DNA from: a virus
DNA: 22,994 bases
Reading direction: 5' to 3' (one strand)
Virus record (IMG/VR): IMGVR_UViG_3300035168_000014
Coordinates: 1 to 22,994 of that record
Below, piece by piece: positions 2,809 to 13,864 of the stretch. Made by a program: the position numbers and the translations under genes. The number at the start of each line of letters is the position of its first letter. Within the stretch, counting starts at the first letter, position 1. Under the pieces are notes generated by a model. The model saw only the letters and a program-made list of their open reading frames with translations, made no database searches and was not told the origin of the DNA.

Positions 2809-3561
2809 TTACTTGGCGCCGGGCTTGCGAAACGGGAGAATGCCTTGGCCGCGGCGAGCGGCGACACGGCGCTCGATCGCCTCACGTCCGCCATCCGTTA
2901 GCCATTCCCGACAGGTCGCCGGATCGAACAGCCGCGCCGTGCGCTTCCCGAGGCTCCCTTCGCGCATAGCGACATGTCGCTTCACATGCGCAGAGACGAG
3001 ACGGCTGGAGACGAACTTGTCGAGGCCGCGCATTCCGCTCGCGCCCGGCACCTTGGCGAGGTCGACGACCTGCCCCGCGGTGTAGCCCTTGCCGATCGAG
3101 AACTCGCCCGAGGCGACCGCTTCCGCGATCATGACCGGCAACATCGCGTTGACGGCAGCGACCGCGGCCTCGCCGGCGATGCGCGCGATCTTGGCTTCGT
3201 CGAAGCCGCCGGCGCCATAGGCCCCGGTCTCCCGGATCGACGGGAGAACGTCAGCCGTCACCCACTTACGGAAGCGATGCGCGACGGAGCCGGGCGTCAC
3301 GGCGTCGCGGCAGCGCAGCGCGAGCGCATAGAGACCGGATTCGGAGACGATGAGGACATTCGGATTGCCTCGGGATTTCTCGGGGTTGAACCCCGAGAAA
3401 TCGACGGTCTGTTTTTCATCAGCGTCCAGCTTTGCGACCGCGTCGCTCACATCCGCGAGCCCGAGCGCGCCGCAGACATCCTTGGCGACGAACCAATGCT
3501 TGCCATTGCGGTCGACGGCGCGAATGAGGCATTCGTCGAAACAGAACGGAGTCATTTTCAT
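2809..3561 (-). CDS. Bro-N domain antirepressor-like protein
   Basis: 250 aa, probably a DNA-binding antirepressor-type regulator. Residues ~6-115 are a Bro-N domain: FDECLIRAVDRNGKHWFVAKDVCGALGL, then LIVSESGLYALALRCRD and FRKWVTADVLPSIRETGAY. The C-terminal half (YTAGQVVDLAKVPG...CREWLTDGGREAIERR) is a separate helical region, ending RRGQGILPFRKPGAK. The ATG at 3561 is chosen because GGAG lies 9 nt upstream, exactly as in the KilA-N gene. The frame stays open 40 codons further up to 3681, but that stretch is the structured leader. An antirepressor in the middle of a tail module is out of place: these are normally early genes, so this is probably an inserted accessory cassette. Its last ~48 bases resemble the end of the KilA-N gene at 12806. 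Confidence 0.85.
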   Translation of the reverse strand: MKMTPFCFDECLIRAVDRNGKHWFVAKDVCGALGLADVSDAVAKLDADEKQTVDFSGFNPEKSRGNPNVLIVSESGLYALALRCRDAVTPGSVAHRFRKWVTADVLPSIRETGAYGAGGFDEAKIARIAGEAAVAAVNAMLPVMIAEAVASGEFSIGKGYTAGQVVDLAKVPGASGMRGLDKFVSSRLVSAHVKRHVAMREGSLGKRTARLFDPATCREWLTDGGREAIERRVAARRGQGILPFRKPGAK

Positions 3562-3673
3562 TTTTCCAGTCTCCAATGGCGTCCGGCCCGGCAGGCCCGA
3601 GACGCACGGGTTCGCTTTCGCGATGCCGGAGCCATTGGAGCTCGCGGGTCGCGCCTTCCCCCTGCCGAGGGGG
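3559..3673 (-). ncRNA. Structured 5' leader of the Bro-N gene (candidate cis-regulatory RNA, copy A)
   Basis: Read on the minus strand: hairpin CCCCCT-CGGC-AGGGGG (3673-3658); a 17-nt linker; then a helix between CTCCAATGGC (3640-3631) and GCCATTGGAG (3580-3571), 10 perfect pairs, extended inward by TCCGGC/GCCGGA. Inside are TCGC-GAAA-GCGA (3623-3612, GNRA loop) and CCCG...CGGG (3610-3596). The unpaired CCTGCCG (3595-3589) complements CGGCAGG of the first hairpin, so a pseudoknot is possible. The 3' strand of the main helix holds the GGAG ribosome site 9 nt before the ATG. Copy B at 13816-13703 has the same architecture with compensatory changes. The two copies differ in length by one base and have indels, so coding pressure does not explain the conservation. 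Confidence 0.75.
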
Positions 3674-3715
3674 AATCTCATGATTTCAGTGTTCTGCCGT
3701 TGATCCCGTGGCCTC

Positions 3716-3745
3716 TCGACAGAGCCGCCCTGTCGCCGCTAGATT
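3716..3745 (+). promoter_or_regulatory. Candidate promoter of the lipoprotein gene
   Basis: TCGACA (3716-3721) and TAGATT (3740-3745) are separated by 18 bases and lie 37 bases before the ATG at 3783. Both match sigma-70-type boxes only partly. A plus-strand gene inside a minus-strand operon needs its own promoter, which raises the prior. Confidence 0.35.
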
Positions 3746-3782
3746 GAGGGGCTCTTTCCGGGCTTCAATCGGGGGAACTTTT

Positions 3783-4163
3783 ATGCGTCTATTCGTGCTC
3801 ATTGCCGCCACGTCGCTCGCCGGCTGCATCTCGTCTCAAACAGCGATGACCGGGCCGTCGACCGCCCATGTCGAAGTCTCCGCCGGCGGGCTTCTCTTCA
3901 AGGATCAGGCGCAGCCGACCTTTCTTCGAAAGGCCGCGGAACTGACAGCGGCGGCAGGCAAGAAATGCTTCTCGACGACCGGCCAGAAGACTTTCGATGG
4001 CATGGTCGATAGCGTCGCGGTGACCCGCACCACGCTGTTCTCACAGACACAGCAAACTGTGAGCACGCCGACGAGGGCGCTCGCGGCAGATATTCAGATG
4101 TCCGACAAATGCGACGCCAGCACCTACGACGCCGCCGCGATCCTGTCGCAGGCCAAATCGTGA
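3783..4163 (+). CDS. Small lipoprotein on the opposite strand (phage moron)
   Basis: 126 aa. The ATG at 3783 follows GGGGGAA (3771-3777). The N-terminus MRLFVLIAATSLAGC is a lipoprotein signal peptide with lipobox LAGC, so Cys15 would be the lipidated residue of a membrane-anchored periplasmic protein. The mature part (e.g. FLRKAAELTAAAGKKC) has two further cysteines, Cys62 and one near the C-terminus, that could form a disulfide. It is the only well-supported plus-strand gene of the left half. It converges on the tail gene ending at 4124, and the two share 40 bp at their 3' ends. Opposite strand, own promoter candidate and export fit a prophage-expressed moron, possibly a superinfection-exclusion or host-fitness factor. 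The family is not recognised and the role is inferred from context only. Confidence 0.75.
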   Translation: MRLFVLIAATSLAGCISSQTAMTGPSTAHVEVSAGGLLFKDQAQPTFLRKAAELTAAAGKKCFSTTGQKTFDGMVDSVAVTRTTLFSQTQQTVSTPTRALAADIQMSDKCDASTYDAAAILSQAKS

Positions 4164-4519
4164 CGGAGCGACCACCCAGACAGGATCGAAAACTGCCCAA
4201 CATGCACGCGGCCGTTCGTCGCGGCGACGCTGAACCGGCCGGCATTGACGCCAAGCACGCGGCCCTGGCCGCCGCCCCCGATGATCACCGCGTCGCCTGG
4301 CTCAACTTCTTCGGCAGAGATGCGACGGAGCCCCATTCTCTCCGCGATGATCGCGGCGCCCTCTTCGGCGCCGCGGCTCTCCCATAGCGCGCGCTGCTCA
4401 TCGGCGCTCGGTCCGACAAAGCCCAGCGACTCGGCCCATGCGACGACTGGCTCCGAACAGATCATCGGAACGCGCCCGACAGCGAAGGCGCGGAAGAACT
4501 CGATCGGGCTCAGCTCCAA
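4124..4519 (-). CDS. Tail-tip assembly protein, DUF6950-like (NlpC/P60-position) protein
   Basis: 131 aa starting at a TTG (4519-4517) that overlaps the previous stop; the next Met is residue 18 (MICSEPVVAWAESLGF). It occupies the place where siphovirus tail modules usually carry an NlpC/P60-type peptidase, just before the J-like tip gene. A single cysteine in an N-terminal helix (Cys20) and a later small-barrel region (EEVEPGDAVIIGGGG...GRVLGVNAGRFSVAATNG) resemble the layout of DUF6950 proteins, a family I recall as remotely NlpC-like. The usual catalytic Asp-Cys pair is not evident, so activity is doubtful. The start codon is uncertain. Its 3' end overlaps the convergent lipoprotein gene by 40 bp. 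Confidence 0.55.
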   Translation of the reverse strand: MELSPIEFFRAFAVGRVPMICSEPVVAWAESLGFVGPSADEQRALWESRGAEEGAAIIAERMGLRRISAEEVEPGDAVIIGGGGQGRVLGVNAGRFSVAATNGRVHVGQFSILSGWSLRHDLACDRIAAAS

Positions 4520-5088
4520 TAGAGCACCCGCATGTTGCTGGCGTATCCAGAGATGCGCTCGAGGATATCGTCGCCGGGGAAGCGCGCTGTCTGATCGCGA
4601 TGCGTCAAAAACACATTTGGCGATCGGAACCGCGATGATTGGAAGCTCTCAGTTTCCAGCGTGAAGCTCGTAGTGCGACCCTTCGCGTCGACGTGCTTCA
4701 CAAGCCGCTCCATGATCGTCGTCCGCAGAATGATCGGGTCGGAGGCGAGGCTCCAATCATCATTGAACATGATCAGATAGGCCGCGCACTCCCGCCCATG
4801 GATCTCCGCCTTCTGGTCGACATAGATCGACGCGAATTCAGATGATGGCAGGGCCGAAAGTGCGAACGTCATCGGCTCGTTCTTGTCGCCGTAGCCTGCG
4901 AACATGCCGGAGATCGAGCCAACCGTCCCGACGGCCTCCCAGACATGGCTGGTGCTGTCCGTGAACGATCCTCCCTCACCCCGATAGAGGTAGCGCGTCC
5001 CGCTTGCCAGATCGAATCTGGCGCCGATCGTCGCCTTTACATCCGAGCGCGTCGCCAGCGCATAGAGGGCCTCTCCGAGGATGCTCAC
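4510..5088 (-). CDS. Tail-tip protein, function unknown
   Basis: 192 aa. The GTG at 5088 overlaps the previous stop (GTGA) and is preceded by GAGGAGG, a strong ribosome site; the frame extends further up but without a comparable start. The protein starts VSILGEALYALATRSDVKATIG and has a mixed alpha/beta look, with no transmembrane segment or catalytic motif that I recognise. It sits third after the tape measure in a row of co-translated genes (distal tail protein, this gene, DUF6950-like, J-like). By position it is a baseplate hub or tip-connecting protein, similar in place to the DUF2163-type hub proteins of GTA-like tails, but the sequence does not let me assign that family. Confidence 0.6.
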   Translation of the reverse strand: MSILGEALYALATRSDVKATIGARFDLASGTRYLYRGEGGSFTDSTSHVWEAVGTVGSISGMFAGYGDKNEPMTFALSALPSSEFASIYVDQKAEIHGRECAAYLIMFNDDWSLASDPIILRTTIMERLVKHVDAKGRTTSFTLETESFQSSRFRSPNVFLTHRDQTARFPGDDILERISGYASNMRVLYWS

Positions 5089-5789
5089 CAGCGATCCTCC
5101 TCGAAATCGAGATCGATCGTTCCGAAGAAATCCTGCTGGTCCAGAGTCTCCGCGACCTCCAATGTCTCCCGCGTCGCGAGGCATCGCACGATAGGCGCCT
5201 CCGTATAGGCCGGGTCGTCGACTGCGATAGCGGCGCGCAGATATGGCCAGATCGAGAGCGTCGACTTCCCCGAGACACCGTCTTCCGACGGAAAGATCTG
5301 CTCGATCGTGTAGAGGCGATCTTCGAAGCCGATGTAATTCCCGGCCGTCAATTCGACCTCGGACGGTCCGACTCGCTGGACATCGATCGTCATCGCCCGC
5401 GCCGAGGCGGCGGTCGCGACGAGGAAATCCACCGGCTGGCCGTAGAAGGTAGAACCGCCCGAGAATGTCGACCCGTCAGAGAACGTCACGCCGAGCGGCA
5501 GGGCGACCGCCGCCCGCTTGCGCGGCGTCCGCAATTCGTCCATCGGCGTGATGTAGATCGGCTTCCGCTGCGCCAATCTGGTGACCATCGCCCGCATGGT
5601 GAGCACGCGGCCGCCATAGAGCGCAGTGGCGCGGTGGCCGAACTTCCATCGGCCGGCGTCGGCTGTAACGCTCTGCCCCGGCCCGACGAGCGTCTCGCCG
5701 CCGAAATTGACGGGGTGGATTCTGCCGCGTGACATATATTTCGGCCGGAGCACGCTCGGCCAATGCGCGATCGTCGGGTCATAGGCCAT
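5085..5789 (-). CDS. Distal-tail-like protein directly after the tape measure
   Basis: 234 aa. Its ATG shares one base with the tape-measure stop (TGATG), so the two are translationally coupled. Beta-rich sequence with a short internal repeat SDGSTFSGGSTFYG near residue 108 and a conserved-looking core (WKFGHRATALYGGRVLTMRAM). The gene immediately after the tape measure normally encodes the distal tail protein, the ring joining tube and tip, and the size fits. I see no diagnostic motif, so the name comes from position. The C-terminus (DLDFEEDRW) is strongly acidic. Confidence 0.55.
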   Translation of the reverse strand: MAYDPTIAHWPSVLRPKYMSRGRIHPVNFGGETLVGPGQSVTADAGRWKFGHRATALYGGRVLTMRAMVTRLAQRKPIYITPMDELRTPRKRAAVALPLGVTFSDGSTFSGGSTFYGQPVDFLVATAASARAMTIDVQRVGPSEVELTAGNYIGFEDRLYTIEQIFPSEDGVSGKSTLSIWPYLRAAIAVDDPAYTEAPIVRCLATRETLEVAETLDQQDFFGTIDLDFEEDRW

Positions 5790-8700
5790 CAGATCGCGCG
5801 CCGGCTCGCCTCAGATTGTTTTTTGTTGTTCGCGGCGATCATCGTCGCGGCAGTCTTTCTGATCTCGACGATGATTTCGCCGTCGGACATCACGCGCGGG
5901 GTAGCCTCCACACCAGGGGCGTAATTGTTGAAGGTGAACTTCGGCGCGGCCGGCGGCTGTGTGAAGCTTATGACCTGCGGAGGCGCGGCCGGCGGCGCCG
6001 TCATATGAACCGGGATGCGGCGACCATCCGGCAGCGGGACGAACGCCTCCGGCCCGCGGCCCTCGCCAAATAGCGCGAGTTGCGGCCGATCGGCGACCCC
6101 GCCAGAGGCGTAGCGATGCAGCGGCAGCGCGCCGGCGCTCGTCATGATCCCGCCGCTCTCGAATTTGAAGAGGCCGCCGAGAAAGTCTCCGATGCCGGAG
6201 AAGAGGCCCCCGAGGAATCCGCCTCCACCGGAGTTACCGCCCCCAGCGATTTTGTCGAGCAGTCCACCGCCTCCCGCGAGCCCGGCTCCGGAGAGGTTCA
6301 CGTTCGCGGCCTTGATGTTTACGTTCGCGGCATTCTTCTCGCTGCCGCCGCCGATCCCGAGCAGGCTCCCGAGCGGGCCGAGGCTATCGGAGCCCATGGC
6401 GCCCATGAAGCTTTCCACGATGTTGCCGATCGACTGGCGCATCATGTTCTCGGCCATCCGCCCGAGCGCATCTTTCGCGGCCGCGCCGACATCCTCCCCG
6501 CGCGCCAAAGCCACCGCGGAGCCGCCGGCGATATCGGCGACGCCCGAGCGCAAAACGTCGTACGAAGCGACGCGCTTGCGCATTTGATCCTGCGCGGTCG
6601 CATTGTCGGCGGCTTTCTGCGATAGCTTTTCGATCTTCCTGGCAAGCTCTTCGGCGATCGGGATTCCGAGCCGCTGCGCCTCATTGAGAAGTTTCTGCTG
6701 CTCTTCGGCTGCGGCGATCGCGCCCTTGTTCACGCCCCAGGCGCCGGACGCCAGATCGATCGCGCGGCGCTGATCGTCGAGCGAGCGGGTTTCGTCACGG
6801 AGCCAATTGTCGACCTGTTCGATATTGATTGCGCGGATCGTGGAGTCGTACTTCCGATAGGCTTCTGTCGCCTCATTGATCTTTTGCGCCTGCCCTCCGA
6901 ATGACGATTGTGCGGAAGCGGCCTCGGCGGGGTGCGACTTGAACCCCTCCCAAGCGCCGATCCCCTGCGTCCGCATGATCCAATCCGCCATGCGGTTTTG
7001 GTTCTCGGCTGAGAACATGTCATTCCCGCCGAGTCCGAGCGCGCGCATCGCGTCACGCTGCGTCGTGTTCGTGATCTGGAATGCGCCCTTGGCGCTCGAA
7101 TTGAGGCCCTGGGCGCGCCTGACCTGATCTCCCCATGCGAGGCTCTCCGCCATCGTCATGTCGACGAGCGGCTTCGGCGAGCGCATGTAGCCGAGCGAGG
7201 TATTGTAGGGGTCGCCGAACTTGTCGGTTCCCTCGGCGCGCATGATCGAGCGGTAGAAGTCTCCGCCGGAGCGCGCGAAGAACGGAACGACGTTCCCGGC
7301 CGCCGCTGGCGGCGCTGAGGAGCCTTGCGCGCCGGACGCGCCGATCCTCGCCGCCGCGCTATCCATCGCATCGGCGAGGCGCGTAGCGGCATTGCCGGCC
7401 CGGTCGAATGGAACGACGACGGAGCGATCATAGATGCTGAGGTCCGAGCCAGCGCCGCCCGCCCGGTTCGCTCTCTTCAGATCGTCCTGAAGGGTGAGCT
7501 GCGCCTCCTTGATCGCACGCTGGTAAGGGTCGAGCCCGGCGAGCTCGGCGCGGCGGGTCGCCTGCTTGGCCTGCTCCCGCATTGCGCGCGCGGACTCCAG
7601 CAGCACGACATTGCGCGCGCCCTCGGCCGCCGTGACCGCCGCGAGCCGGTCCTTGCTGGTCTCCATCTCGGCGCGGAACGCCTGTTCCGCCGCGATCTGC
7701 GCCTTCTGGCCGATCGTCTCCGCCTCGGCCGAGCGCATCGCCAGCATATTCGCCTCGGTCACGCGCTCGAGCGGTGACCGCAACAGACCGATCGCGACCC
7801 CGAGCTTGTCGAATGCCTCCCGCGCTTCATTCGCGCGGTCGCCGAGCGCGGCCAAGCCGTCCTTGTCGGAGAGCATGGCCCTGATGGCGTCGCGCGCGTC
7901 CTCGAGCTGGCGGCGCTGTGCGAGATCGGGGCGGATCTGGTCCATCGTCTGCGTCGCGCTCTGCGCCAGGACATTGAGCCGCTCCTGCTGGCGCAGCGCG
8001 TCGATGCGGCCCGCATCCTGCGGCGCGTTCTGTTCCCGCAGCCTGCCATAGCGGATATCGACCTCGGCCAATCCGGCCTGCAGTGGCGAGAGCCCGCGGA
8101 GCTGCGCCCGGTCGCTCGCGTCGCGGGACATGTCGTCGAGGCGGCGGGAGGATTCGGCGAGCGCGGCGTTGCGGGCGCCTTCCGCAGCCAGCGCCGCAAG
8201 CGTCTCGTCATGGGTCTGGCGCAGCGTCGTGACGCGCGCCTGCTCCGCCGCGATGCTCGCTCGCTGCTCGAACGAATAGGCGCCGATTGCTCGAACAGCC
8301 AGATCGCTGTCCTGCCGCATGCGCTCCGCTGGCGTCTGGAAATTGGCGAGCGCCGTGGACAACTGCGCCACGATTTCCTTCGCCGCGCCCGCCCTTTCGC
8401 CGAGCGCGGCGAGACCATCCGCGGTCTCTGTTAGCGGCTTGATCGCCGCGAGCTGGCGCTCCATCGTCCGGCGCTGGACCTCATCCGGGGAAAGCTGATC
8501 GATCAGCGGCCCGGCAAGTTCCGACCTGCGATTGAGGTCGATCCGATCGCGCTCCCGCTGTGCGGGCGTAATCTCCGGCGCCAATCCGATCCTGCGCTCG
8601 TAATCGGATAGCGAACCGGCGCCTGGGGCAGGGAGAGCGGCCGCAGCCTGGCGCGGCAGCTCGATCCGCTGGAATTTCGGCAGCAGAGCATCGATCCCGG

Positions 8701-10303
8701 CGCCGATCCCATCGATCGCCTTTCCGGGAAGCGACGTGAAAGCCTCCCATCCGCGCGCGAGAAGTCCGGTCGAATCCTTGGCCTTCTTCACCTCTTCATC
8801 GAACATCCGCGTCTTCAGAGCCACGGCTTCGGAGAAGCGCCCCATTTGCTCCAGCGCGGTAACGGTCTCACGCGTCGCCAGCGACACCGGGCCGAAGCGG
8901 CGTTCGAACGCGCCGAGGCCCTGGTCCCCGACAATCTTCACGATTTCCGCATAGGCGTCGGCGAGCTCGAGGCCGAAGGCGCGGGAAAAGCGCGGCGCGT
9001 CGCCGAGAAGCGTCGGGATATTCTCGACACCGATTCCGGCCTGGGCGATCTGCGCCGCCCCAGAGACGGCCTGTCCCCGCGACATCGCGCCGGAGCGCGC
9101 CGTCGCATCGGCGATGGCGGATAGCTGGCCGGCGGAAGCACCGGCGGCACGGCCGACGCCATTGAGCGCGCGCTCCAATTCCGCTTGCTGATCGCGGAAT
9201 CGCATCACGGCGACGCCGGCCGTGCCAACAATGGCCGTCAGAATTGTGAGGGGATGCGTCGCGACGCGGAGCGCGGTCGAGCCGACCTCGGCGATAGCCG
9301 CTTTCGCGCCGACGCTGGACGACGACAGGGCGTCGAAGACCTGGGCACCTTGAGAGGTGACGATCTGCATCGGCGACGCGCCCATTGCCGCCATCGTCGC
9401 AGCATCCTGGATCTGGCGCGACAGATTCACCCATTCATGCCGGGCGAGCCCCGCGGCCTTCGCATTGTCGTTGACGCCCTTCGTCACTGCGGCGAGAGGA
9501 TCGGAAGTCGCGAGGCCAACGCCGAGGATCTGCGCCGCCGCGTCATCTGTCGTGGCGGCGCCGGATACGGAGCCGCTAGATGCAGGTCTGAAGCGCCCGA
9601 TAGCATCCCGATGGATGTCGATGCCTTGTGCAACATCGCCGACTGCGATCGGCGCACGTGACTGGCCAGCCCCGATCTGCGCTTGGTTCCGGCTTGCGGT
9701 CAACTTGACCGCATTGGCCTCGAATTTCCGCGCAGCCACCTCGACGCCGCCGCCCATGTTTGCGAACGCGGTCGTCGTCGCGCCGCTCATGCGCGTGGCA
9801 TTGGCCTCGAGCTTCTTCGCGAGCGCCGCCATCTTGTCGATATCGGCGGAGGCGCTTGCCGCTTCCTTTCCAGCAGCGGCGGCAGAGCCGCCCAATTTCC
9901 CGAGCGACTTCTCGGCTCGCGCCGCAGCGCTCGCGGCCTCATTTGTCGCGGAAGCGATCTCCGCTCCGGCCTTGGTCGCATCCTGTCCAGCATCGGAAAG
10001 AGCATCGCCGATTTTGCCGGCGGATTTCGCGACTTCCGTCGCCGCAGACGACGCTTTCTTCGCGGCATCCGCAAGAGCGCTGCCGAGTTCATCGGAGGCC
10101 TTCTCGGCTTTCGCGGCGCCGGCGCCGATCTCCGCCGTGGCGGCCGATGTCTGCTTGCCAGCCTTCTGGACAGCGGCGCCCATTTGATCGGCGGACACCT
10201 CCGCCTTCTTCGCCGCAGACGCGAATTTATCGAGGGCCAGCGTGCCCTTTTCAGCATCGGAGGAGTCAATCGCTATGCCGAGTTTTGCAACGTCGTCAGC
10301 CAT
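5789..10303 (-). CDS. Tail tape measure protein with internal muramidase-like domain
   Basis: 1504 aa, by far the longest gene, preceded by GGAGGAGACG. It sets tail length and is ejected with the DNA. Residues 1-220 are Ala/Lys/Glu-rich coiled coil (e.g. KKASSAATEVAKSAGKIGDA). About 280-520 resembles the prophage tail-length tape-measure family, with a hydrophobic segment near 353 (HPLTILTAIVGTAGVAVM). More coiled coil follows to ~980. About 1010-1135 is a lysozyme-like domain: YRSIMRAEGTDKFGDPYNTS, with Glu in RAEGT as the likely acid and SAKGAFQITNTT as the second conserved block. It probably opens peptidoglycan during injection. The region from ~1337 is Gly-rich and hydrophobic, and then SGGVADRPQLALFGEGRGPE is a common tape-measure C-terminal motif. 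By the usual ~1.5 A per residue rule the tail would be roughly 0.2 micrometres. Confidence 0.92.
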   Translation of the reverse strand: MADDVAKLGIAIDSSDAEKGTLALDKFASAAKKAEVSADQMGAAVQKAGKQTSAATAEIGAGAAKAEKASDELGSALADAAKKASSAATEVAKSAGKIGDALSDAGQDATKAGAEIASATNEAASAAARAEKSLGKLGGSAAAAGKEAASASADIDKMAALAKKLEANATRMSGATTTAFANMGGGVEVAARKFEANAVKLTASRNQAQIGAGQSRAPIAVGDVAQGIDIHRDAIGRFRPASSGSVSGAATTDDAAAQILGVGLATSDPLAAVTKGVNDNAKAAGLARHEWVNLSRQIQDAATMAAMGASPMQIVTSQGAQVFDALSSSSVGAKAAIAEVGSTALRVATHPLTILTAIVGTAGVAVMRFRDQQAELERALNGVGRAAGASAGQLSAIADATARSGAMSRGQAVSGAAQIAQAGIGVENIPTLLGDAPRFSRAFGLELADAYAEIVKIVGDQGLGAFERRFGPVSLATRETVTALEQMGRFSEAVALKTRMFDEEVKKAKDSTGLLARGWEAFTSLPGKAIDGIGAGIDALLPKFQRIELPRQAAAALPAPGAGSLSDYERRIGLAPEITPAQRERDRIDLNRRSELAGPLIDQLSPDEVQRRTMERQLAAIKPLTETADGLAALGERAGAAKEIVAQLSTALANFQTPAERMRQDSDLAVRAIGAYSFEQRASIAAEQARVTTLRQTHDETLAALAAEGARNAALAESSRRLDDMSRDASDRAQLRGLSPLQAGLAEVDIRYGRLREQNAPQDAGRIDALRQQERLNVLAQSATQTMDQIRPDLAQRRQLEDARDAIRAMLSDKDGLAALGDRANEAREAFDKLGVAIGLLRSPLERVTEANMLAMRSAEAETIGQKAQIAAEQAFRAEMETSKDRLAAVTAAEGARNVVLLESARAMREQAKQATRRAELAGLDPYQRAIKEAQLTLQDDLKRANRAGGAGSDLSIYDRSVVVPFDRAGNAATRLADAMDSAAARIGASGAQGSSAPPAAAGNVVPFFARSGGDFYRSIMRAEGTDKFGDPYNTSLGYMRSPKPLVDMTMAESLAWGDQVRRAQGLNSSAKGAFQITNTTQRDAMRALGLGGNDMFSAENQNRMADWIMRTQGIGAWEGFKSHPAEAASAQSSFGGQAQKINEATEAYRKYDSTIRAINIEQVDNWLRDETRSLDDQRRAIDLASGAWGVNKGAIAAAEEQQKLLNEAQRLGIPIAEELARKIEKLSQKAADNATAQDQMRKRVASYDVLRSGVADIAGGSAVALARGEDVGAAAKDALGRMAENMMRQSIGNIVESFMGAMGSDSLGPLGSLLGIGGGSEKNAANVNIKAANVNLSGAGLAGGGGLLDKIAGGGNSGGGGFLGGLFSGIGDFLGGLFKFESGGIMTSAGALPLHRYASGGVADRPQLALFGEGRGPEAFVPLPDGRRIPVHMTAPPAAPPQVISFTQPPAAPKFTFNNYAPGVEATPRVMSDGEIIVEIRKTAATMIAANNKKQSEASRRAI

Positions 10304-10769
10304 CGTCTCCTCCTTTCCTTTTCGCAGTCACGACATGCGCGACATCGCGCAACCCATCCTTGATTGCGCGTTGCCGATCTGCCTTGCTCTTTGCCTCGGC
10401 CGATTGAGCCGCAAGATAGGTGTCGTCTAGATCTTCGATGAGTTCGATTTCCCATGGGGCGAGCCGCACTCTGGCCCGCCGCATGAACGCATCGATATCC
10501 GGCCATTCGATAGGGGATGGCCCTGCCATTGACGGTGATTTGCGGCGCCTGAGACGCGCCCACGCTTCCCAGATATGCCGTAGCGCTTCCGGGAATGGCG
10601 GCGTCGCAAGCTCCGCCTCTATTTCGGCGACGACATCCGCGCGCTGCTTTCGAATTGCTCTTTCGAGGCGCGATAGCAGCCGGTCCCGCCGCGTCCGGCC
10701 TTCGTCGGAATAGTCGAGATAGAACGCGCGCTCGGCGTATGCCTTCAGGCCGTTGCCGAGCGCGACGTA
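10296..10769 (-). CDS. gpT-like C-terminal part of tail assembly chaperone (made by -1 frameshift)
   Basis: An open frame of 157 codons with no ATG or GTG near its beginning. It overlaps the end of the gpG-like gene in the -1 frame and ends 8 bases inside the tape-measure gene. It reads YVALGNGLKAYAERAFYLDY..., with an acidic and aromatic middle (EIELIEDLDDTYLAA) and a basic end (VVTAKRKGGDDG). In many siphoviruses the chaperone upstream of the tape measure is made in two forms, gpG and a longer gpGT, by -1 slippage near the end of G. Position, missing start and frame all fit. The fusion would be about 294 aa (137 from gpG, 157 from this part). The window holds no other candidate for gpT. Confidence 0.75.
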   Translation of the reverse strand, partial: YVALGNGLKAYAERAFYLDYSDEGRTRRDRLLSRLERAIRKQRADVVAEIEAELATPPFPEALRHIWEAWARLRRRKSPSMAGPSPIEWPDIDAFMRRARVRLAPWEIELIEDLDDTYLAAQSAEAKSKADRQRAIKDGLRDVAHVVTAKRKGGDDG

Positions 10770-11179
10770 AAAGCGTTGTCGTCGCTCAGGAACTCGAGCG
10801 CCTGGATGAGCAGAGCTCCCTTCTTCGGATCCGAGAGCAGCTTGCGCGCGTTCTCCGGCGAGAACGGGTAGACCTCGCCGCCGAACTTGACCTCGGTCCA
10901 CCCCAGCATGCGCTCGACGACGAAGGAAATGTTCCTGTCACGGACCGCGGTCGTGCTCTCTTCCGGCGCCACCCATTTCCTGCCGTTGACGCGCGCCTGT
11001 TCTTGTTCGCGGTCACGATGCAGGCGCTCCCGCGAGAGGCGGTCGCGCTGCTCGAGCGTCTTCGCATGGCCGGGGCCGGCGAATGTCCAAACCCAGTCTG
11101 ACGGACGCCCCTTGATGATGACTGGCATCTTCGCGTCGTCGGAATAGTCCAGGTCGGAAAGATCGAAATCGTCGCTCAC
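10745..11179 (-). CDS. Tail assembly chaperone, gpG-like
   Basis: 144 aa. Located between the tube protein and the tape measure, the normal place for the chaperone that coats the tape measure before tube polymerisation. The ATG at 11179 follows AAGGGGGAACTGTG. The N-terminus is acidic (MSDDFDLSDLDYSDD). The middle contains WVWTFAGPGHAKTLEQRDRL and a segment seen in such proteins, VAPEESTTAVRDRNISFVVE. The last codons overlap the gpT-like frame, and a T-run slippery site lies eight codons before the stop. Confidence 0.75.
   Translation of the reverse strand: MSDDFDLSDLDYSDDAKMPVIIKGRPSDWVWTFAGPGHAKTLEQRDRLSRERLHRDREQEQARVNGRKWVAPEESTTAVRDRNISFVVERMLGWTEVKFGGEVYPFSPENARKLLSDPKKGALLIQALEFLSDDNAFTSRSATA
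10766..10774 (-). promoter_or_regulatory. Probable -1 ribosomal slippage site for gpGT
   Basis: Minus-strand bases GCT TTT ACG: slipping back one base on TTT re-pairs perfectly because the base before it is also T, and moves reading from ...NAF-TSRSATA-stop to ...NAF-YVALGNG. It is not a canonical X-XXY-YYZ heptamer, since the P-site codon GCT would re-pair poorly; slippage would mainly involve the single TTT codon. Confidence 0.5.
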
Positions 11180-11194
11180 AGTTCCCCCTTACGA

Positions 11195-11695
11195 TCAGGC
11201 GCCGACAGAGGCGACTTCATAGACCGACGTGTTGATGCCGATGTTGAAATTGCGCCGCGTCACATTCGAAACGTTGCCGTGATTGGTCGGGCGGGACATC
11301 ACCATGCCTGCATAGTACTGCACGGAATTGGTGTAGCCGCTCCCGCGAGCATCGTTCATCACGATCTTGAAGTGATAGTTGAAGTCCGTCTTCTCGGCGT
11401 CGATCAGGTCCTCCTGACCGTCGTCGAGCGCATCACGCCCGACGATGACGGCCTGGGTCCCTGCGTTGCGCGGTCCCTTGATCTTGCGGACCCGACGATT
11501 GCCGAGCGCAGTGAACGTGATCTCATCGGACGCGTCACCGATCGTGCCGAGGTCTTCGACCTCTTCGACCTCCACCCATCCGGTCAGCGCTTCGAAATGC
11601 GTGATGGCGGCGGAATTGCTCAGCGCATTGATTGCATCGACATCGGCGACCGGGCCGATATAGAACCGCGTGCCAGCAGTTGCTTCGACAGCCAT
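11195..11695 (-). CDS. Major tail tube protein
   Basis: 166 aa, preceded by AGGAGAACGACA, a strong ribosome site suited to a highly made structural protein. Beta-rich, with features of tail tube subunits: an N-terminal MAVEATAGTRFYIGP, then WVEVEEVEDLGTIGD, a central FTALGNRRVRKIKGPRNAGT, and YYAGMVMSRPTNHGNVSNV. No signal peptide or membrane segment. It lies between the tail terminator and the chaperone genes, the standard place for the tube gene. No sheath gene is present nearby, so the tail is non-contractile. Confidence 0.8.
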   Translation of the reverse strand: MAVEATAGTRFYIGPVADVDAINALSNSAAITHFEALTGWVEVEEVEDLGTIGDASDEITFTALGNRRVRKIKGPRNAGTQAVIVGRDALDDGQEDLIDAEKTDFNYHFKIVMNDARGSGYTNSVQYYAGMVMSRPTNHGNVSNVTRRNFNIGINTSVYEVASVGA

Positions 11696-11708
11696 TGTCG
11701 TTCTCCTT

Positions 11709-12134
11709 TCAGCGTGCGAACGCTTGCCACCTGATGGTCACTTGCGTTCGGGTCCAAGAGTCATTTTGCATCGCGGCGCCGGCGCTCGGTCTGCCGTCGA
11801 TTTTCAGAGCGAAGCTCTGATCTGCCGGGCGCAGCGGTGTGCCCACAGCGAAGTGCGCGACAATGGCGGCAGAGATCCTCTTCGATGCGAGCTCGCCGGC
11901 GCCGCGCGGCATCACGACAGACACCTGAAGAAGCCCGCGCATCAGGACTGAGGCGCTGTGCCCGATGAAGGGCGAGATGTTCCGATTCGGGAGATAATCG
12001 ACCGCGATCCAGGTGCCGGCCGGAGGATCGAAAGGCACGTCCGGCCACGCGATCGGCAGTGGCGGCGCGAAGGTCAGGTCTTCCAAGTGCCTGAAAAGCA
12101 ACGCAGGGATAGCGACTTCCGGCGCTTCGCTCAC
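11709..12134 (-). CDS. Tail terminator protein (DUF4128-like)
   Basis: 141 aa. The GTG at 12134 follows GGGGAAGG at a suitable distance; no ATG is available near it. The sequence (FRHLEDLTFAPPLPIAWPDVPF, then FDPPAGTWIAVDYLPNRN and a C-terminal RTQVTIRWQAFAR) is typical of tail terminators, which cap the tube at the head-proximal end and stop polymerisation. It lies just before the tube gene, as usual. Its 5' end is 17 bp from the plus-strand ORF at 12152, so its ribosome-binding region and the putative start of that ORF overlap on opposite strands. Confidence 0.75.
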   Translation of the reverse strand: MSEAPEVAIPALLFRHLEDLTFAPPLPIAWPDVPFDPPAGTWIAVDYLPNRNISPFIGHSASVLMRGLLQVSVVMPRGAGELASKRISAAIVAHFAVGTPLRPADQSFALKIDGRPSAGAAMQNDSWTRTQVTIRWQAFAR

Positions 12135-12145
12135 CGTGCTACCTT
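12117..12145 (+). promoter_or_regulatory. Candidate promoter giving a leaderless transcript of the 74-aa ORF
   Basis: TTCCGG (12117-12122) and TACCTT (12140-12145) are 17 bases apart. The ATG at 12152 is seven bases after the -10 box, where transcription would start, and no Shine-Dalgarno precedes it. Box matches are modest. Confidence 0.3.
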
Positions 12146-12151
12146 CCCCTC

Positions 12152-12376
12152 ATGATGCGCGATGACGACGACCCGCCCTTGATGTCCGACGCCGAGGTCC
12201 ATGCGGTGTTCAAGAGGCTCATCGAGACGATCGGAGACCGTCACGCCGAGACCGAACTCGGCGAGAAGACATTGCGCGCCGTCGAGCTATTCGTGGGCGG
12301 ATGCATGCTCGTGATGTTCAAGGAGATCGATCACGACGCTCATTCGCCCGGACCGCCGCCTTCGCGCGAGCCGTAG
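12152..12376 (+). CDS. Small plus-strand protein of unknown function
   Basis: 74 aa: MMRDDDDPPLMSDAEVHAVF... then a predicted helical body (FKRLIETIGDRH, LGEKTLRAVELFVGGCMLVMF) and a Pro/Ser tail. It fills a 183-bp gap between two minus-strand tail genes where no minus-strand gene exists, and overlaps the end of the gp10-like gene by 59 bp. By hand count about 61 of 74 codons end in G or C, as in real genes here. No ribosome site is visible, but a promoter-like pair ends just before the ATG, so it may be translated leaderless. Alternative start at Met11 (12182). The protein is unrecognised. Opposite strand and position make it a moron candidate like the lipoprotein gene. Confidence 0.5.
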   Translation: MMRDDDDPPLMSDAEVHAVFKRLIETIGDRHAETELGEKTLRAVELFVGGCMLVMFKEIDHDAHSPGPPPSREP

Positions 12377-12809
12377 CTTCCGCAACTATCCACGGCCAAT
12401 TCTGAGCGGCGCGTCCGACCACTCGATAGCCGGATTGATTATAGGCCCGGCCGAGCGAGTCCTCGCCGACGAATCCATACTCGAGTCGGCGCGCATAAAT
12501 CGCGGAAAACCCTAGGTATACTGTCCCGCCGAGAGGGACATTTTGAATGATGAGATTGATCGGTCCTGCGTCGTAGGAATACGTCACGCCTGTGGCTGGC
12601 TTTGCTTCCGCGCGCATCACCGGCATCTGGGTTCCGCTGGCCTCGAGAGAGGCACGGTAGAAGCCGGTGTCTATGAGCTTTTCCGCAAGGATAATGCCCT
12701 GGATCTCTTCCGCGACATCTTGGGCGGCCATGTGAAACACAGCCTCGACGCGTTCTTTCGTGGACCTCACCCAGTCATCGATCTGGGCTGCGAAGGTCTT
12801 TTGCGTCAC
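12318..12809 (-). CDS. HK97 gp10-like tail-completion / neck protein
   Basis: 163 aa. I take the GTG at 12809, which overlaps the KilA-N stop (GTGA); the frame is open further up, but that part is a shadow of the KilA-N gene. Starts VTQKTFAAQIDDWVRSTKERVEAVFHMAAQDVAEEIQ, the N-terminal helix typical of HK97 gp10-like proteins. It continues through a Gly-Phe-Tyr segment (LIDTGFYRASLEAS) and the family's aromatic block (YLGFSAIYARRLEYGF). Such proteins sit at the neck and are needed to complete the tail-to-head joint. It precedes the tail terminator as in many siphoviruses. With no strong ribosome site of its own, its translation probably couples to the KilA-N gene in front. Confidence 0.7.
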   Translation of the reverse strand: MTQKTFAAQIDDWVRSTKERVEAVFHMAAQDVAEEIQGIILAEKLIDTGFYRASLEASGTQMPVMRAEAKPATGVTYSYDAGPINLIIQNVPLGGTVYLGFSAIYARRLEYGFVGEDSLGRAYNQSGYRVVGRAAQNWPWIVAEATARAKAAVRANERRDRSP

Positions 12810-13705
12810 TGCTTCGCGCCGGGATTCACGAGATGGAGAACGCCTTGGCCGCGCGGCTCCGGGCGCCGGGCGAAGGGCTCCTTGGATTGCAGCGCCGCGA
12901 TGAGTGGGCCGCCAATGGCGGCCTTCCATTCGGCGATCAGCCGGATCGAGAACAGCGCGCCCTCGTGTCGCGTCTCTTGCGGCGGCGGGAGCCGGTCGCC
13001 GGCGTGCCCATGCTGATCGAAATAGGATTGCAGGCTGCGGCGCACGAGCGCGACGCCGTTCCCGCGCCCCTTGCGGGCAACGCGAAGATCGAAGAACCCA
13101 GCCGCTTCCGACCTCTTCGTCCCATTGAGCAGGTCATAGACGGACAGATGCGATACGGCAGAAACGCGCGTGTCTTTGCGGAACTCCTCTTCGGCGAGGG
13201 TGCGCATGATTTCCGTGTCGCGCTTCGCGTCGGCTTCGTCGAGCCGCCTCTTGAAGTCCCGAAGCTGCTCGTCCTGCGAGCGCAGATGCGCGCCGAAGTC
13301 GCGAAGGGCGATCGCGTTCTCTTTGGTTGCCTCGATGAGGGCCGCGATCATCGCGTCCGGCGCAGCGGGCTTCCCGCTCACGATATCCCAAACCCAGCCC
13401 GAGACGACGACAGCGAACTCCGGCGACGCCCATTGCGCGAGGTGCATCGCGACGCGCGGGTGGACCCAGGTGCCTTGGAGCTCGGGGATTCCTCCTCTAA
13501 GCGATTGAATTATTTCCGTTGTCGGTATACCGATTTCGGTCGCTAAGGCCTTTAGAAAGGCCTCGGTGGGCTCATTGTCGTGGCGATAGCGGCTCCAAGG
13601 CCGCCCCACCGCTTTGCACATGGCGGTAGCGTTGAAATAGCCGTCTCCTTCACGCTGGTGGATCAGCGTGCCGCGATATTCGCGAGAGATGAGAGCATTC
13701 GTCAT
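12806..13705 (-). CDS. KilA-N domain antirepressor-like protein
   Basis: 299 aa. Residues ~5-110 are a KilA-N DNA-binding domain: YRGTLIHQREGDGYFNATAMC, then GTWVHPRVAMHLAQWASPEF and VVSGWVWDIVSG. About 125-175 is coiled coil (RSQDEQLRDFKRRLDEADAK). The C-terminal region ends PRGQGVLHLVNPGAKQ, resembling the end of the Bro-N protein at 2809. ATG 13705 is chosen over the ATG at 13720 because GGAG (13718-13715) lies 9 nt upstream, the same spacing as in the Bro-N gene. KilA-N proteins of phages act as regulators or antirepressors; target unknown here. It is wedged between the minor head and gp10-like genes, an unusual place for a regulator, so I regard it as an inserted cassette. Confidence 0.85.
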   Translation of the reverse strand: MTNALISREYRGTLIHQREGDGYFNATAMCKAVGRPWSRYRHDNEPTEAFLKALATEIGIPTTEIIQSLRGGIPELQGTWVHPRVAMHLAQWASPEFAVVVSGWVWDIVSGKPAAPDAMIAALIEATKENAIALRDFGAHLRSQDEQLRDFKRRLDEADAKRDTEIMRTLAEEEFRKDTRVSAVSHLSVYDLLNGTKRSEAAGFFDLRVARKGRGNGVALVRRSLQSYFDQHGHAGDRLPPPQETRHEGALFSIRLIAEWKAAIGGPLIAALQSKEPFARRPEPRGQGVLHLVNPGAKQ

Positions 13706-13816
13706 GTCTATGGTCTCCATCGGCTCCGGCCTGACAGGCCCGAGAGCGCACGGGGTCGCTAAGCGACGCCGGGCCGATGAAGCTCGGTGTCGCGCTCAAT
13801 CCCCCTGTCAGAGGGG
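13703..13816 (-). ncRNA. Structured 5' leader of the KilA-N gene (candidate cis-regulatory RNA, copy B)
   Basis: Same architecture as copy A (3673-3559). Hairpin CCCCT-CTGAC-AGGGG (13816-13802); linker with the shared GCGCGAC; main helix CTTCATCGGC (13782-13773) with GCCGATGGAG (13724-13715), then CCGGC/GCCGG; inner hairpins GTCGC-TTA-GCGAC (13767-13755) and CCCG...CGGG (13754-13739). CCTGTCAG (13738-13731) complements CTGACAGG of the first hairpin. Compared with A, two main-helix pairs change on both sides (A-T to T-A, T-A to C-G), as do two loop-loop pairs, and one C-G becomes T-G. GGAG is again inside the helix, 9 nt before the ATG. It lies in a 159-bp space after the minor head gene. Confidence 0.75.
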
Positions 13817-13864
13817 AAATTCGATTGGCTCAGAGAGGCAGGCGCTGGCGCCGCGCCGCAGTGA

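Follow-up and report, generated by a model that had tools for sequence, protein, structure and literature searches.

Two leaders upstream of Bro-N and KilA-N genes in a viral DNA record belong to a family of C4-like structured RNAs

We analysed a 22,994-nucleotide stretch of viral DNA (IMG/VR virus record IMGVR_UViG_3300035168_000014, positions 1 to 22,994; the whole stretch is referred to as the window), in which two antirepressor-type genes on the minus strand, one encoding a Bro-N and the other a KilA-N domain, are each preceded by a structured leader. An initial annotation made from the letters of the sequence had placed two related leaders, A and B, at these sites; both can be read directly, and their helices hold in the other members of the family described below. 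Leaders A and B are the only two copies of the element in the record. They fold alike, with a 5′ hairpin (P1), a long closing helix (P2) and inner hairpins (P3 and P4). As had also been claimed, the genes behind them have N-terminal domains of unrelated families (PF02498 and PF04383, respectively).

The main helix of the initial annotation exists, with its extent corrected: P2 has 15–16 bp in both leaders, including an inward extension (T)CCGGC/GCCGG(A). The Shine-Dalgarno sequence GGAG forms part of the 3′ strand of P2, and in each leader the ATG follows 9 nt downstream. The contact made by the P1 loop exists as well but comprises 6–7 bp rather than 4 (long-range pairing 1; CGGCAG/CTGCCG in leader A and CTGACAG/CTGTCAG in leader B). 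Two segments that had been described as unpaired and kept, GCGCGAC and GTGCG (CCCGTGCG), are in fact the two strands of a further contact, and there are therefore two long-range pairings in the RNA. Pairing 2 joins GGCGCG to TGCGTC in leader A, with two G·U pairs, and GAGCGC to GCGCTC in leader B. The pairing sequences thus differ between the two leaders of this phage (Table 1).

Table 1. Positions in the window of the parts of leaders A and B and of the genes behind them; a1, b1, a′ and b′ are the names of the corresponding parts of C4 and its target
Feature	Positions	Strand	Evidence
Leader A, whole element	3569-3676	-	own covariance models, cmsearch: R1 85.1 bits, R2 73.6 bits
Leader A, 5′ hairpin P1 (TTCCCCCT..AGGGGGAA)	3656-3675	-	folding and covariation alignment
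Leader A, CGGCAG in P1 loop, strand 1 of pairing 1, a1-like	3662-3667	-	pairs with CTGCCG 3594-3589; partner-swap test
Leader A, linker GGCGCG, strand 1 of pairing 2, b1-like	3650-3655	-	pairs with TGCGTC of P4 loop, two G·U
Leader A, P2 5′ strand (CTCCAATGGCTCCGGC)	3625-3640	-	folding and covariation alignment
Leader A, hairpin P3, TCGC GAAA GCGA	3612-3623	-	folding and covariation alignment
Leader A, hairpin P4 (CCCG..CGGG), loop with b′-like TGCGTC (3606-3601)	3596-3610	-	alignment and partner-swap test
Leader A, CTGCCG, strand 2 of pairing 1, a′-like	3589-3594	-	alignment and partner-swap test
Leader A, P2 3′ strand, ending in Shine-Dalgarno GGAG (3574-3571)	3571-3587	-	sequence read directly; family covariation
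Bro-N gene behind leader A	2809-3561	-	Pfam PF02498, E 3.4e-19
Leader B, whole element	13713-13819	-	own covariance models, cmsearch: R1 81.4 bits, R2 85.1 bits
Leader B, 5′ hairpin P1	13800-13818	-	folding and covariation alignment
Leader B, CTGACAG in P1 loop, a1-like	13805-13811	-	pairs with CTGTCAG 13737-13731; partner-swap test
Leader B, linker GAGCGC, b1-like	13792-13797	-	pairs with GCGCTC of P4 loop
Leader B, P2 5′ strand (CTTCATCGGCCCGGC)	13768-13782	-	folding and covariation alignment
Leader B, hairpin P3, GTCGC TTA GCGAC	13755-13767	-	folding and covariation alignment
Leader B, hairpin P4 (CCCG..CGGG), loop with b′-like GCGCTC (13749-13744)	13739-13754	-	alignment and partner-swap test
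Leader B, CTGTCAG, a′-like	13731-13737	-	alignment and partner-swap test
Leader B, P2 3′ strand, ending in Shine-Dalgarno GGAG (13718-13715)	13715-13730	-	sequence read directly; alignment
KilA-N gene behind leader B	12806-13705	-	Pfam PF04383, E 9e-18

The family to which these leaders belong has at least 58 distinct members, found on plasmids, in alphaproteobacterial genomes and in viral contigs. Among plasmids, BLASTN turned up relatives lying between genes in Xanthobacter, Shinella and Azospirillum, as well as a 3′ fragment from Methylocystis parvus that adjoins a Bro-N relative of the gene in the window; BLASTN against phages gave nothing useful. A covariance model built from a hand-shaped alignment added six members from 347 genomes belonging to the same order as Rhodoplanes. 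An 11-sequence model, R2, confirmed 32 of the 32 loci picked out in viral contigs by a pattern scan for the 3′ end of the element, which brought the total to 44 sequences (40 distinct), and a collection guided by protein and blind to the RNA contributed 18 new distinct leaders. Further genomes gave more members, one genome having three leaders. Sparse sampling across the phylum as a whole gave matches in only 2 of 398 genomes, of which one has a leader already known and the other a doubtful one (L195). Because scoring within each genome was confined to the best candidates, these frequencies are lower bounds. L195, G760:14095 and minus-strand shadow matches are excluded from the counts. Host names are known for the plasmid records only, where all named hosts are alphaproteobacteria. 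The outcome that the initial annotation had proposed as its test, further homologues with covariation upstream of antirepressor-type genes, was thus obtained.

Pattern scans of viral contigs templated on the two window copies yielded no matches or chance ones, and the pattern scan of genome contigs gave chance matches apart from inverted repeats in Rhodoplanes. These repeats, at L022:3605-3696 and L027:42-103 of Rhodoplanes serenus, are near-identical, GC-rich (AAGTCGGGCCTGCCCGACTTGCG) and on separate contigs, and are unrelated to the leader.

Compensatory change between the two copies had been put forward as keeping the pairing, and this is borne out well above chance. In the hand alignment of 11 sequences (with one bulged base omitted from the Shinella row and one base from the L037 row), pairing is found in 95.8% of cells and double changes in 28 of 48 pairs, a level that 0 of 500 shuffles or slides reach. 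All six helices have double compensatory changes: 5/6 pairs in P1, 8/17 in P2, 3/6 in P3, 3/4 in P4, 5/8 in long-range pairing 1 and 4/7 in pairing 2. For the nested helices the same result was obtained with the 44 sequences (40 distinct) and with the 31 sequences located through the protein alone, and the pairing of the Shine-Dalgarno sequence covaries family-wide (alignment columns 50-55/129-134). The covariation alignments are partly fitted to the structure, and the safer evidence is the hand alignment together with a partner-swap test. In this test, on 39 distinct members, the two long-range pairings averaged 6.7 and 6.8 with their own partners and 4.7 and 5.1 with swapped partners; for both, 0 of 10,000 permutations equalled the own-partner fit. 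The pattern used for the viral contigs had specified some of the bases in one strand of pairing 1 and none in pairing 2.

G·U cells greatly outnumber A·C cells (82 versus 3), consistent with an RNA in the sense orientation of the gene. Conserved unpaired bases are nearly absent (one C after P4 and an A after the b1-like strand), and the loop sequences that pair are highly diverse among members. We conclude that the leaders are real structured RNA on the coding strand, in which compensatory change preserves two long-range pairings. One variant (L054:10608-10769) has a large insertion within P3 and retains both long-range pairings.

In the family, P2 has GGAG at the end of its 3′ strand, usually 4–11 nt before the start codon. 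Predicted accessibility of the Shine-Dalgarno sequence, in folding restricted to nested helices, was lower than in shuffled leaders for 39 of 40 leaders (mean 0.215 versus 0.437). An unbiased view of the position of the element comes from 80 viral loci chosen solely by the presence of the protein phrog_4652, the commonest product of the genes behind the element. A complete element is carried by 31 of these loci, where it is always in the sense orientation and its end lies immediately ahead of the start codon; at the other 49 there is none even at an E-value of 5. Since these 49 include close homologues, some more than 70% identical to the query, the element is detachable from its gene, and the idea that phrog_4652 needs the leader was rejected. 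A natural broken leader is present on the Shinella plasmid p1_Teo12 (L013:3000-3113); its Shine-Dalgarno side has decayed and no gene lies directly behind it, a Rha-type gene being found farther downstream.

The genes behind the element are varied. The antirepressors among them have four unrelated N-terminal domains (Bro-N, KilA-N, Rha, with KilAC, and P22_AR_N), and the remainder include ParB-like genes, an HNH gene between portal and scaffold, a tail-assembly-like family, an S24-peptidase-like gene and genes of no recognized kind. phrog_4652 (L038:2011-2673 and relatives) is a widespread phage protein for which a Cas7-family (RAMP) fold is predicted with moderate confidence (mean pLDDT 73.9). 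The PDB matches of its model are all Csm, type VII or Cmr-type subunits, with E-values from 3e-5 and a probability of 1.00 but TM scores of only 0.3–0.45. All 22 phrog_4652 copies in leader-bearing records sit behind a leader, and its actinophage relatives, which are without this RNA, adjoin immunity repressor, antirepressor (Ant) or excisionase (Xis) genes. The protein is probably a member of the lysogeny-control layer. As the partner of the RNA it was rejected, being absent from records whose leader precedes another gene.

C4 is a textbook antisense immunity RNA, so far known from gamma- and betaproteobacterial phages. The initial annotation had known of no RNA family of this shape; however, the elements of the leaders are of the same order and kind as those of c4-a1b1 (RF03163) and C4 (RF01695) of phage P1, which belong to clan CL00128. 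Phage P1 and the leader family share an a1 hairpin loop, a b1 linker, a long stem around a short hairpin, a hairpin with b′ in its loop and a 7-nt a′. The closing stem has 17 bp in phage P1 and 15–16 in the leaders; the a1–b1 gap is 7 nt in phage P1 and has a modal length of 7 in the family; and the b′–a′ gap is 6 nt in phage P1 and 4–8, mostly 5–6, in the family. The a1/a′ core TGACAG/CTGTCA is identical in phage P1 and leader B. The antirepressor-operon setting of C4 is also found here, with antirepressor genes directly behind the element, although the family precedes many unrelated genes as well.

There are also clear differences. In the family a short linker joins a1/b1 to the C4-like domain, whereas in phage P1 they are ~70 nt away, and, unlike in C4, the Shine-Dalgarno sequence is part of the 3′ strand of the closing stem. 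A scan for a second a2/b2 target near the gene gave 3 of 44 loci versus 2 of 44 in a foreign control, none beyond chance; the same kind of scan recovers both target sites in phage P1. The comparison with Rfam that the initial annotation had recommended found no family at gathering score in the window, leaders A and B included, nothing meaningful and no C4 at E≤10, and no match at gathering score for 15 homologous loci. In the immI region of phage P1, which served for comparison, Rfam detects both c4-a1b1 and C4, the latter at 68.8 bits. Because the two halves are fused, the Shine-Dalgarno sequence is internal, no a2/b2 site is detectable and the models do not match each other's families, we call the element C4-like: it is a compact form of the C4 layout and is not filed as a member of RF01695.

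Our preferred reading, to which we give a probability of roughly 0.7, is that the leaders are a compact, mostly cis-acting C4-like gate on translation of the next gene in alphaproteobacterial phages. Once the leader is transcribed, the a1/b1 strands would lock onto a′/b′ and P2 would hold the Shine-Dalgarno sequence, so that binding of the 30S subunit would be blocked. An antirepressor-type gene in a phage operon would thereby be silent or expressed at a low level in the lysogen. Translation or RNA traffic across the helix, or some factor, would disrupt it and so open the gate. The loops vary so widely in sequence as to suggest mutually insulated pairing specificities, as for C4 antisense RNA.

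Several points weigh against this reading. Repression through burial of the Shine-Dalgarno sequence is something that we infer from fold and position; in nested-only folding, which omits the pseudoknots, the Shine-Dalgarno end is only ~80% paired, and translating through a helix of 15–16 bp would require an opener. Genes with no known role in lysogeny also lie behind the element (the tail-assembly-like phrog_6454 in L042 and HNH in L061). In addition, RF01695 reaches at best 9.3 bits on the whole record, outside the leaders, and our own covariance model finds nothing convincing in phage P1. The case for common descent with C4 is therefore one of shared layout and not of sequence, since neither model picks up the opposite family.

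C4 itself has been reported from beta- and gammaproteobacterial orders and from Caudovirales (Weinberg; PMC5320573), and it acts in trans as a free antisense RNA of ~77 nt whose precursor is cut by RNase P (PMC5320573). The common layout with phage P1, the very diverse loop specificities and the different a/b sequences of the two leaders here would all suit a C4 system proper, in which the C4-like domain is excised, acts in trans against the a1/b1 strands of other transcripts and so confers inter-phage immunity. We regard this as a tentative alternative, as the scan that recovers both targets in phage P1 found no second a2/b2 target near the gene, and as the Shine-Dalgarno sequence lies inside the domain, whose excision would also remove it from the message. 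Translational coupling is rather unlikely. Ribosomes ending the upstream gene would here melt P1 and the loop contact, thereby releasing the gate. There is precedent in the coupled control of an antirepressor in IsrK-orf45-anrP (PMC4825925), and the 5′ end of the element does follow the previous stop closely in most members (mostly 3–45 nt before P1). Phage genes are tightly packed anyway, however, P2 is ~80 nt from the stop and stable alone, and leader A has no same-strand upstream gene that close.

A riboswitch-type or protein-bound switch, with a ligand or protein stabilising or opening the double-pseudoknot fold, seems improbable to us. The compact fold with its integrated Shine-Dalgarno sequence does have the outline of translational riboswitches, and one element precedes many unrelated genes, but the near absence of conserved unpaired bases leaves no obvious ligand pocket, and the Cas7-like protein, absent from records whose leader precedes another gene, is not an obligatory partner. 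Finally, GC-rich DNA folds readily and an open frame that starts with the ATG at 3681 happens to run through leader A into Bro-N, as might be expected if the resemblance were due to chance, if the signal were an artefact of coding, or if the element acted as DNA, for instance as a palindromic recombination or packaging site. The shuffles, slides and partner swaps, the excess of G·U over A·C and the invariable sense-strand position just before a start codon make any of these extremely unlikely.

The gate that we favour has partial parallels in other phages. Local RNA structure that hides the ribosome binding site holds down translation of T4-type homing endonuclease genes inserted in phage operons (I-TevI, segB and mobE; PMC3014915). 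These are described as local structures, whereas the leaders form a conserved family with two long-range pairings before unrelated genes. The P22 immI or ‘ant moron’ (mnt, arc, sar, ant) places antirepressor and small repressor genes in the late operon (PMC11016777, PMC2629481); it resembles small late-region islands of the leader family, and translation of ant is under RNA control (PMC2629481, PMC11016777). There the antisense RNA sar binds ant mRNA, whereas in the leader family a cis-encoded C4-like fold would hold the Shine-Dalgarno sequence; structure and strand bias in the family point to the sense strand.

Such small islands, made up of the element and its gene and set between tail genes, occur in several phages and prophages, together with an opposite-strand RHH-like or HTH gene (the RHH-like assignment being below the cut-off of Pfam). 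Opposite-strand genes of this kind lie upstream of the leader operon in L106 (7367-7573), L107 (8230-8427), L109 (7482-7694) and L110 (8036-8251; all oriented, minus strand), and similar small genes are present in L045, L053 and L103. This arrangement suggests a mini-immunity module in the late region. As a mark of late-operon genes only, the leader is not upheld in general, since some copies adjoin ParB or methyltransferase genes.

More broadly, we consider it about an even chance that a C4-type immunity RNA has been turned into a detachable cis switch, with antisense and target fused, the ribosome binding site inside a double-pseudoknot and the cassette shuffled between unrelated genes, including the Cas7-like one, with its own specificity in each phage. 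The leader family extends the C4 kind to phages of alphaproteobacteria, in a form that unites regulator and target in one molecule with a built-in Shine-Dalgarno sequence and is linked to antirepressors of four unrelated families. The element also offers a way to recognise lysogeny-control modules in prophages that lack annotation and, as it is short and encoded in cis, its function is testable by reporter fusions.

Upstream of leader A, a small lipoprotein-like gene (MRLFVLIAATSLAGC...; window 3708-4163, plus strand) is divergent from the leader, which therefore seems to be the head of its own transcript. The open frame through leader A (window 3681-3559, minus strand) gives a 290-aa open reading frame with Bro-N, and automatic gene callers may as a result annotate across the RNA; extended frames also occur at loci L059, L044 and L053. 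The Methylocystis parvus fragment is a truncated 3′ half of the leader on plasmid pMpar-1 of strain OBBP (L015:2980-3060), before a Bro-N gene akin to that of the window. This fragment and the related Bro-N gene suggest, without proving, that the host of this phage may be a relative of Methylocystis.

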